34,171 bases of DNA. Origin: Candidatus Gastranaerophilales bacterium (GTDB lineage: Bacteria > Cyanobacteriota > Vampirovibrionia > Gastranaerophilales > Gastranaerophilaceae). A program made the position numbers and the translations under genes. Under the pieces are notes generated by a model. The model saw only the letters and a list, made by a program, of their open reading frames with translations, had not been told where the DNA came from and did no database searches. The first letter of the stretch is position 1, and the number at the start of each line of letters is the position of its first letter. Positions 26,963 through 34,171 of this stretch are shown here, one piece after another. Location: the NCBI GenBank assembly GCA_947857085.1, contig CANUDF010000013.1:1-34171 (forward strand), given 5' to 3'.

Positions 26963-28012
26963 TCATTTTATAATACAAAGGATTTTATTGTATCCGTAAT
27001 TATTACCGTGATCAGGGGAAGAATGATCCAGCGTAAATACCCGTCCCCAGCCCCTGCCGGATATATCCTGTCCACCCCATTCCGTAACTTCTTCATTAGA
27101 CCATAAGAAAAACTGTTCCTCTGTAGCCAATGTTGGCAATCCATATGAAGCGGCAAGTTCTGCATTAAATTTACCGTCTATCCTTTTATCTGCTGCGGCC
27201 TGGCCGCCATATAACTTTGAAGCTATTTCTGCAAGCTGAGCTCTTGACGGCAAATTATCAAGTCCGCCGCAAGTTTTTACAGCACCTGCCCAGTAATTAT
27301 GTTCATCATTACAAGAAATTCCAAGTTCATCTTTTAAGGCCTCACATTCAGCACCAGATAGGCCAATACCATTTAATGCGGCACTATAACATGTACCATT
27401 AAGTTTAAACGCACACAGCCCATTAAGGCTCAATACATTAAGGCTTCGTAAATCTTTTCCGCTTGTGTTTGGGCTTTTAAACCCTGATGTATCATATAAT
27501 ATTGCCAGACAGTCACTTCCGGTTATCTGATTACTGTATGGGTCTTGTCTACAGTTGGGGTTATATGCAATTAACCCGTTAATACCGTTTGCAAATTGTA
27601 CACCTACCAGCTCAGTATTCCATTCAAGACCAAAATGACTTGATGATTTGAAAGTTGACAGATTAACTTCTGAAACATCCTGGTCTCCGCTGCCCCAATA
27701 AACTTTTTCAGAAAAACAGTTTGTCAAATTACTGCTGCATATTTTAGTAATTTTAATATGTTTTGCTAATTCATTCACAAAATCTTTTGTATTTTTATAT
27801 CCAGCAAGAGTTTGCTGTGTATTCATCACGCGGGTAGCTTCTTCTAACTTTCTCTCAAAAACTTGTGCTGAAGTATTCCAGGATTTATTCTGATAATTTT
27901 GTACAAGTGCAGGTATAGTTAAAGCGGCTACAACACCTATAATAGCTAAAGTTATAAGAACTTCAGCTAAGGTAAATCCCTTAGACCATAAGTGACAAGA
28001 ACTATAATTCAT
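26963..28012 (-). CDS. Prepilin-like surface protein with type IV leader
   Basis: 349 residues from the ATG at 28012. The leader MNYSSCHLWSKG is followed by the prepilin peptidase site G|FTLAEV and a hydrophobic helix (LITLAIIGVVAALTIPALV). This is the N-terminus of type IV pilins and type II pseudopilins; the Glu of FTLAE is the usual Glu5. The exported domain shares MNTQQTLAGYKNT and DPYSNQITG...SCLAILYDTSG with the 1-849 gene. The C-terminal part (LPSRAQLAEI, FFLWSNEE, GRVFTLD) resembles DUF1566/Fib_succ_major, which is inference. This start has no Shine-Dalgarno but lies 9 nt after a perfect -10 box. An upstream ATG at 28116, with a strong Shine-Dalgarno, would read into this frame only if the G9 run at 28081-28089 had ten Gs. 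TTG at 28021 is also in frame. Confidence 0.85.
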   Translation of the reverse strand: MNYSSCHLWSKGFTLAEVLITLAIIGVVAALTIPALVQNYQNKSWNTSAQVFERKLEEATRVMNTQQTLAGYKNTKDFVNELAKHIKITKICSSNLTNCFSEKVYWGSGDQDVSEVNLSTFKSSSHFGLEWNTELVGVQFANGINGLIAYNPNCRQDPYSNQITGSDCLAILYDTSGFKSPNTSGKDLRSLNVLSLNGLCAFKLNGTCYSAALNGIGLSGAECEALKDELGISCNDEHNYWAGAVKTCGGLDNLPSRAQLAEIASKLYGGQAAADKRIDGKFNAELAASYGLPTLATEEQFFLWSNEEVTEWGGQDISGRGWGRVFTLDHSSPDHGNNYGYNKILCIIK

Positions 28013-28021
28013 AATGACCAA

Positions 28022-28050
28022 ATTATAGTACCAGTCCAGAAATTTGTCAA
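28022..28050 (-). promoter_or_regulatory. Exact-consensus sigma-70 promoter inside the prepilin 5' region
   Basis: Minus strand: TTGACA (28045-28050), a spacer of exactly 17 bp, TATAAT (28022-28027). Both hexamers are perfect. The expected start point is near 28015, three bases before the ATG at 28012, giving an almost leaderless mRNA. Confidence 0.7.
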
Positions 28051-28068
28051 ATCCCTTGCTATGAGAGG

Positions 28069-28116
28069 TTAGCTGTGACGCCCCCCCCCGAGATCCCTAA
28101 TAAAAAACTTTTTCAT
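28069..28116 (-). CDS. Short upstream frame with G9 run, possible off-phase prepilin start
   Basis: AGGAGG lies just upstream of the ATG at 28116, the best ribosome site near this gene. The frame reads MKKFFIRDLGGGRHS and stops at TAA (28069-28071). The three glycines are the G9 homopolymer. With one extra G the frame continues without a stop through 28012 into the prepilin, giving a 47-residue leader before G|FTLAEV. With 11 Gs it hits TAG soon after. So this is either the OFF state of a phase-variable gene, a decayed original start, or a sequencing error in the run. Confidence 0.55.
   Translation of the reverse strand: MKKFFIRDLGGGRHS
28081..28089. repeat. C9/G9 homopolymer tract
   Basis: Nine C on the plus strand (nine G on the coding minus strand), a few codons after the ATG at 28116. 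Runs of this length are striking in such AT-rich DNA; the only other one seen is at the window end, in the same type of gene. Confidence 0.9.
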
Positions 28117-28137
28117 GGCTCCTCCTTTTTCCTTTTG

Positions 28138-28166
28138 ATTATAGCAAATTTATTTATTTTGCGCAA
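28138..28166 (-). promoter_or_regulatory. Sigma-70 type promoter upstream of the G9 frame
   Basis: Minus strand: TTGCGC (28161-28166), 17-bp spacer, TATAAT (28138-28143). Transcription would start about 15 nt before the ATG at 28116 and include its AGGAGG. The promoter lies directly after the rpsU terminator. Confidence 0.7.
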
Positions 28167-28172
28167 CAAAAA

Positions 28173-28197
28173 AAGAATCCGTAAGGATTCTTTTTTA
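28173..28197 (-). terminator. Intrinsic terminator of rpsU
   Basis: On the minus strand AAGAATCC, loop TTAC, GGATTCTT, then a T run. It begins about 10 nt after the rpsU stop and separates rpsU from the prepilin promoter. Confidence 0.88.
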
Positions 28198-28204
28198 CTA
28201 TTTG

Positions 28205-28378
28205 CTACACTTTTCTTTTGCGGGCAGCTTCTGATTTACGTTTTCTTTTTACGCTTGGCTTTTCATATCTTTCACGTTTTTTAACTTCAGATAAAATGCC
28301 TGCTTTTTGGATTTTTTTCTTAAAACGTCTCAATGCACTTTCGATTGACTCGTTTTCTCCAACTTTAACTTCTGCCAT
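28205..28378 (-). CDS. rpsU: 30S ribosomal protein S21
   Basis: A 57-residue protein beginning [19 protein letters not shown], with the S21 pattern [26 protein letters not shown] and a very basic C-terminus ([13 protein letters not shown]). S21 binds the 30S platform near the anti-Shine-Dalgarno end of 16S rRNA and helps mRNA initiation. The ATG at 28378 has AGGTGGTG upstream. It is monocistronic, with its own terminator. Confidence 0.95.
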
Positions 28379-33326: not shown

Positions 33327-34171
33327 TTAATCTATACCGCCGGAATGCGAACCATCACGCCCGCAAGACCAATAGGAGTCTAATGACGTGTCTTTATCAC
33401 AACTCCATTTATCAGCACAAGTAAAGCCAACATGTAAATCGTCATTCCAGGTACAATTTTTGTATGAAGTCCAATTGCCTGAAACACCGCTGAAAGAAGT
33501 ATAATTTTCATCATCCCAAACAAAGGTACCGGTTCCAAACCAAACATCTATAGCATCAGGTAATGGAGGAGCTTGAATATTATTTATAGATATATCTCCA
33601 AACTTTTTAATATCTTTTTCAAGCGAATTAGGGTTTCTTGTACCATTCACATCATACAACATAGCTACACAAGATGTGACTTTACTTGTGATATTGGTAT
33701 ACGGGTCCACAGCAACACAATTTTTATCATAAGTAATTAACGCAGAAACACCGCTGTCAAACATTAAGCCTAATACATTGGTTCCCCACTCAGATAATCC
33801 CAATTTAGCACTTGTTTTTAAATCTGCAACCTCATATTCATCTCCGTCAAATTCAAATTTTTCACCAAAACATGATGTTAAATCATCTTTATCACAAATT
33901 TTTCCGATTTTCATATTTTTAGAAAATTCATTAACAAACTCTTCTGTAGTTGAAAATCCTGCTATTTGCTGATTAACATTCATAACCCGCATTGTTTCTT
34001 CAAACCTGTTACGGAAAACTTTATTTGCAGAATCCCAGCTCTTTTCATTGATGTTTGAAACAAGCGTTGGTATTGTAAGTGCTGCAACAACACCGATAAT
34101 TGCTAAAGTGATTAACACTTCAGCTAACGTAACCCCCTTGCTGTTACTACTTAGAGGAGATGCCCCCCCCC
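33327..34171 (-). CDS. Prepilin-like surface protein, cut by the window end
   Basis: At least 280 residues, open to the last base. The visible leader reads GGASPLSSNSKG and then G|VTLAEV with the helix LITLAIIGVVAALTIPTLV, so the prepilin peptidase site is intact. The ATG is beyond the window; the G9 run at the edge encodes leader glycines. The exported part shares the MNVNQQIAGF block, KIC...TSCF and DPYTN...SCVAMLYD with the other two paralogues. Its C-terminal ~80 residues are Trp-, Asp- and Cys-rich (VWFGTGTFVWDDEN, CTWNDDLHVGFTC, SYWSCGRDGSH) and unlike theirs, so only the pilin part is shared. An internal GTG within VLITL is not a sensible start, since it would remove the leader. Confidence 0.83.
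   Translation of the reverse strand, partial: GGASPLSSNSKGVTLAEVLITLAIIGVVAALTIPTLVSNINEKSWDSANKVFRNRFEETMRVMNVNQQIAGFSTTEEFVNEFSKNMKIGKICDKDDLTSCFGEKFEFDGDEYEVADLKTSAKLGLSEWGTNVLGLMFDSGVSALITYDKNCVAVDPYTNITSKVTSCVAMLYDVNGTRNPNSLEKDIKKFGDISINNIQAPPLPDAIDVWFGTGTFVWDDENYTSFSGVSGNWTSYKNCTWNDDLHVGFTCADKWSCDKDTSLDSYWSCGRDGSHSGGID
34163..34171. repeat. Homopolymer of at least nine C/G at the window end
   Basis: The window ends inside a run of C on the plus strand (G in the coding strand of the third prepilin-like gene). Its true length is not known. Position in the leader matches the G9 tract at 28081-28089. Confidence 0.9.

Follow-up and report, generated by a model that had tools for sequence, protein, structure and literature searches.

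The question raised by this locus is whether the length of a G homopolymer, lying between a strong start site and a prepilin frame, decides if the pilin is made. The locus is on the minus strand of a 34,171-nt window, by which we mean the whole stretch of DNA that was analysed, from an AT-rich genome of the Gastranaerophilales assembled as 1.75 Mb in 88 contigs. We compared 59 genomes, this one included; as for the sequence read, it was that of stretches around tracts and prepilins only, not of the whole genome.

The G9 leader downstream of rpsU

The features of the locus are listed below; they were read from the sequence or its translation unless another basis is given.

28205..28378, minus strand: rpsU (ribosomal protein S21), the upstream neighbour, anchor for the syntenic site in relatives
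28168..28190, minus strand: probable intrinsic terminator of rpsU, GAATCC-TTAC-GGATTC-T7 (inferred)
28138..28166, minus strand: P1, promoter of the leader ORF, TTGCGC-N17-TATAAT
28121..28127, minus strand: Shine-Dalgarno sequence AAGGAGG
28069..28116, minus strand: ORF of the leader as assembled, with G9 (OFF), MKKFFIRDLGGGRHS followed by a stop
28081..28089, minus strand: G9 tract; the leader and pilin frames are joined at G10
28022..28050, minus strand: P2, a perfect TTGACA-N17-TATAAT within the ON-frame leader (class B gene), from a block scan of the tract prepilins
28001..28029, minus strand: inverted repeat ACTATAATT-N11-AATTATAGT across the -10 sequence and the internal ATG, a possible operator (inferred)
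28010..28012, minus strand: internal in-frame ATG, near-leaderless from P2, MNYSSCHLWSKG/FTLAEV (the slash marks the cleavage site)
26963..27976, minus strand: type IV pilin-like protein in its mature form (337 aa), with cleavage G/F at 27977/27976 (Pfam N_methyl, PilA N-terminus match, paralogs)
34163..34171, minus strand: another G9 tract, flush with the end of the contig, its downstream flank unique in the genome
33327..34162, minus strand: second tract-bearing prepilin, SKG/VTLAEV..., whose frame state is unreadable for want of the start codon, which is past the end of the contig

The leader ORF starts with the ATG at 28116, 3' of AAGGAGG and 5' of the G9 tract (28089-28081). Translation from this ATG gave 15 aa and then a stop with n=9, a 384-residue prepilin with SKG/FTLAEV with n=10, and 18, 19 and 16 aa with n=8, n=11 and n=12, respectively. 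The earlier note had described the start site AGGAGG and ATG, the G9 run and the stop after 15 codons exactly, and its prediction that ten Gs would open the frame into the pilin and eleven would close it again was borne out. The tract lies between P1 and P2, outside both spacers; a phase-variable promoter, with the tract between the -35 and -10 sequences, was ruled out because no promoter spacer contains it. P1-like sites were present upstream of 38 of 64 tract leaders, compared with 9 in control DNA taken 235 nt further upstream.

The encoded protein meets the criterion for a type IV prepilin, with a class III signal, G/F(T)LAE, and a hydrophobic helix (predicted helix 3-51). It matches Pfam N_methyl over the cut-off, its N-terminus matches solved PilA chains, and the criterion of an encoded prepilin peptidase is also met (PF01478 in G000:C42). 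The mature 337-residue pilin falls in a group of 26 paralogs, one of two large groups (26 and 32 members), with a median identity of about 46% among matching paralog pairs. The predicted model has a mean pLDDT of 74 and is confident in the C-terminal domain (residues 190-337); a structure search with it returned no significant PDB match and no known fold for the mature domain, and a search for related loci using the pilin of the 28116 gene alone found none. The label 'adhesin' is a guess, pilus assembly, adhesion and a surface role not having been shown.

The perfect promoter sequence at 28050-28022, which the earlier note did not mention, ends 9 nt before ATG 28012. Blocks of this kind, TTGAC[A/T]-N17-TATAAT with a spacer of always 17, lie inside the ON-frame leader of 18 of the 67 tract prepilins (class B genes), and the in-frame ATG usually follows 6, 9 or 33 nt after the block. 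Judging from these elements, the 28116 gene could be expressed from P2 without the tract. For this gene only, the tract might then be irrelevant or a relic, the pilin being made from P2 and ATG 28012, which would give an ordinary short prepilin leader, and the longer leader being an added or decaying cassette. We consider this unlikely without setting it aside, and it does not exclude phase variation at the other loci. Against it, in 18/18 class B genes the open pilin frame extends through P2 as far as the tract, which would be unlikely if the leader were untranslated, and the leader has kept its strong Shine-Dalgarno sequence and P1. Moreover, the rpsU-adjacent site of the relative G013 carries a prepilin with a G9 leader of different sequence, one base short of ON, and keeps this tract leader without such a promoter; in the other relatives examined, there was no prepilin within 420 nt after rpsU. 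Given P2 and the in-frame ATG 28012, we rate the claim of switching at the level of the prepilin family above that of strict ON/OFF control of the 28116 gene. The reservation of the earlier note, that expression might come only from ATG 28012, therefore stands for this gene, where the ATG is indeed present, but cannot be extended to at least 33 sister loci without an alternative start.

The P2 block (28001-28050), with its inverted repeat, recurs in the leaders of the 18 tract prepilins. It resembles the promoters of some tract-free prepilins and may be a regulator-binding site.

Tract prepilins in the genome and in the family

A scan of the genome gave 88 runs of nine or more Gs (89 with the contig-end run of the window), 5 of exactly eight and 4 of exactly seven. 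Such a bimodal length distribution is not expected from base composition, and the G9 run is far beyond chance, G8 patterns averaging 0.14 per dinucleotide-shuffled window. With 88 such runs in the genome, the idea of a lone oddity was rejected. A tract was found at most 350 nt upstream in 68 of the 96 N_methyl prepilin matches, and several tracts without an assigned prepilin sit at contig ends, where the pilin has possibly been cut off.

Frames were examined in the 67 prepilins for which an upstream start accompanies the tract. Between tract and pilin, the frame of the pilin was stop-free in 67/67, over gaps of up to about 260 nt; the other two frames were open in 7/134 cases, and in 0/106 when the gap was at least 40 nt. 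The leaders are paralogous, so the 67 loci do not count as independent events, although they vary widely in their inserts and in gap length. An internal promoter is absent from 49 genes, and in 33 of these there is no in-frame ATG, GTG or TTG between tract and pilin, meaning that translation must cross the tract. At their assembled lengths, 11 of the 67 loci were ON, 46 lacked one base and 10 had one too many; one leader type was long by one at n=11.

The longest run seen, a G15 (L058, contig C29), has its prepilin in frame (ON). A second leader type has its run as C9 when the coding strand is read (MKTITTKAVQTV-Cn-...) and likewise lacks one base for ON; it was observed at L001, L015, L044, L049, L062, L067, L080, L101 and others.

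All states were also found in same-genus relatives, where 33 loci comprised 8 ON, 14 short by one and 11 long by one (n from 7 to 12). In G024, which belongs to a different genus and whose usual tract length is 13, with ON at 12, 5 of 20 loci were ON at 11-12 and 15 were long by one, mostly at 13. At one locus (L160) the run is interrupted as G6CGG (GGGGGGCGG), which on our reading would lock the leader into the pilin frame. In GTDB genomes the commonest leader motif was found 67 times, 59 of them with exactly nine Gs and 7 with ten; all records named to the order are Gastranaerophilales MAGs, the others being titled only 'uncultured bacterium'. At least 11 tracts were counted in each of the other members of the genus (15/15), 10 to 115 in most genera of the same family (0 to 9 in some) and 0 to 6 in other families of the order. 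Tract abundance is a trait of this family of Gastranaerophilales. MutS and MutL are encoded in the genome and in nearly all relatives, and mismatch-repair loss as a cause was rejected on these grounds.

Taken together, these data establish the anatomy, the frames, the recurrence across genome and family and the length differences among paralogs and species. They also show three of the features expected of a homopolymer contingency locus: a tract longer than chance within a coding 5' end, a change of one or two bases that toggles a full ORF and early stops (in the 28116 gene and in the set), and tract lengths that differ among relatives or alleles (n from 7 to 15, ON and both OFF frames).

Proposed switching through the leader and its alternatives

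Two pairs of contig ends bear on tract length within the sample. C25/C36 and C7/C45 overlap perfectly except for the run length, 11 versus 12 and 10 versus 11, respectively. The ordinary contig overlap is 55 nt (C13/C64), suggesting an assembly k of 55, and C25 and C7 both start exactly 54 nt before the tract end, which is the branch node expected for n versus n+1 alleles if k = 55. The C25/C36 leader is found nowhere else in the genome; C13 (the contig of the window) and C3 terminate inside a tract. These pairs suggest mixed tract lengths in the reads, although no reads were mapped and PCR slippage could produce the same. Indeed, PCR or sequencing slippage can mimic mixed tract lengths (PMC4965091).

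In our judgement, the likely reading is that a prepilin repertoire is switched ON and OFF at translation by slipped-strand changes to the tract in the leader; that slippage is reversible in cells, that expression goes ON and OFF, that the leader is cleaved and that the pilins have a surface role is inferred. DNA-polymerase slippage would alter the G count in a short prepilin leader. In the 28116 gene, the ribosome would read through into the pilin at n = 1 mod 3 (10, 13) and stop within a few codons at other lengths; prepilin peptidase would then cut the leader off, so that switching would alter whether the pilin is made and not its mature sequence. P2 may add tract-independent expression of this gene. 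The same design would govern roughly 70 diverged prepilins in the genome, and as these are mostly assembled OFF, each cell would display a small subset. In the manner of the surface genes of Campylobacter, about 70 surface-fibre proteins of the bacterium are thus probably subject to random on/off switching. We lean only slightly towards the fuller picture, in which about 70 complete prepilins have a G/C-run switch each and are mostly OFF, single cells show small random pilin combinations with unaltered mature proteins, and the whole is perhaps the largest slippage-controlled pilin repertoire.

Slipped-strand switching is supported by the excess of runs of nine or more Gs and their presence at N_methyl genes, by the pilin frames open throughout the set and the genes without an alternative start, and by the mixed states in this genome, the genus and G024. 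The G9 leader kept at the rpsU-linked G013 site, the interrupted and permanently in-frame L160 tract, the contig-end pairs and the prepilin peptidase add to this. What counts against it is the striking uniformity of the commonest leader in public loci, the same one-base deficit at most loci of the genome, the presence of MutS/MutL, which leaves no repair loss to explain hypermutation, and, for the 28116 gene, the second promoter and start. The earlier note had proposed this mechanism for a single candidate locus. The mechanism remains the best supported, switching itself being inferred, and the observation was correct; its scale was under-called, since about 70 prepilins of the genome, and related gut genomes, have the design. 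The comparison with relatives that the note called for also removes one of its conditions for refutation, that all of them would show exactly nine Gs.

The main rival leaves the tract fixed and invokes transcriptional slippage or programmed ribosomal frameshifting, where a constant small slip fraction would give steady low expression of all pilins from unchanged DNA. Long G runs are plausible slippery sites, and genes of this kind likewise have a homopolymer between the start and an out-of-frame body. The uniform one-base-short state at 46/67 loci would fit, and the main point in favour is that 59/67 loci with the commonest leader have n=9. However, a fixed length, a fixed direction of shift and constant expression are expected of such genes, and the first two are not met, though n=9 dominates one leader type. 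The OFF bias is general but its direction differs, the own genus being mostly short by one and G024 long by one, which argues against a fixed programmed frameshift; so does the one leader type of this genome whose tract, at 11, is a base too long. A clean ON length was found at 11/67, 8/33 and 5/20 loci, tracts of 7 to 15 were seen, and the branches of the contig graph differ in the DNA itself. We therefore hold this rival to be improbable. It is more doubtful still that the leader ORF, with its 15 residues, acts as a regulatory uORF or attenuator in which tract length is incidental: the OFF state does give a short peptide, with a strong Shine-Dalgarno sequence, just upstream of the pilin, but a uORF would not need the single open frame across every tract-pilin gap, and 33 genes have no other start. 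That the runs are an artefact of sequencing or assembly, through poly-G from two-colour chemistry or an error in the consensus, is scarcely credible, for although short-read assemblies can misplace homopolymer length by one, tracts with conserved flanks recur in MAGs of several studies, which to judge by the record names used different assemblers, one leader type has C runs on the coding strand, and the tracts are concentrated in one bacterial family.

Slipped-strand contingency is a known kind of system; the lineage is new, the scale unusual, and the switch is placed in a presumably cleaved leader. In Neisseria, type IV pilus components are varied at high frequency and poly-G tracts occur in pilC, a likeness to the present case; there, one expressed pilin (pilE) recombines with silent cassettes, whereas here many complete prepilins have a frame switch each. 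The poly-G/C contingency loci of Campylobacter jejuni resemble the present ones in that surface genes of an AT-rich genome have G/C runs of about 8-12 near the 5' end of the coding sequence, with ON/OFF frames. That species is reported to have 12-29 G/C tracts of 7 or more per genome (PMC4965091), compared with about 97 runs of 7 or more here. Its targets are mainly surface-polysaccharide genes and not prepilins; the present tract lies in a leader whose cleavage is inferred, MutS/MutL are present and the host is a non-photosynthetic cyanobacterial relative. In Moraxella bovis, DNA rearrangement also governs pilin expression, by inversion of a segment and not tract slippage, and with few pilins (PMC11868660). 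Host-restricted pathogens account for most of the large slippage phasomes known, and whether this skew is a database bias is a question raised in a 2025 review (PMC11868660); no precedent for phase variation in Melainabacteria was found in the literature searched. If switching is true, a repertoire several times that of Campylobacter, dedicated to pilins, exists across a family of gut commensals, which would become a model for surface bet-hedging outside pathogens, and most of these pilins would be overlooked or cut short by gene callers.

Inserts and tracts in other settings

At L005, L006, L008, L009, L063 and L106, repetitive elements are apparently inserted in frame between tract and pilin, stretching the leader to about 100 residues; they are reminiscent of in-frame palindromic elements. 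Non-pilin genes of the genome also carry G/C runs (L084, L073, L093, L094, L077). They include genes for a possible LicD-like protein (judged by eye), for an apparent membrane protein, where ON needs one more base, and for what looks like a large GGGA-repeat protein, which is in frame. G029, from another genus of the family, has many near-identical G10 runs (L264-L281, ...ACAA-G10-TAAACCGCTCATACC...) that are mostly not joined in frame to a prepilin, and the same design was rejected for them, as they are mostly not prepilin leaders of this type. The cluster L282 (G029:C18:1300-11000), in this other genus of the family, holds a number of G/C runs, and ORFs that look methyltransferase-like by eye contain some of them. 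Finally, long G runs at L114, L125 and L126 lie in acetyltransferase-like, thiamine-pyrophosphate-enzyme-like and acyltransferase-like genes (by eye), which suggests that tracts occur in other gene classes too.
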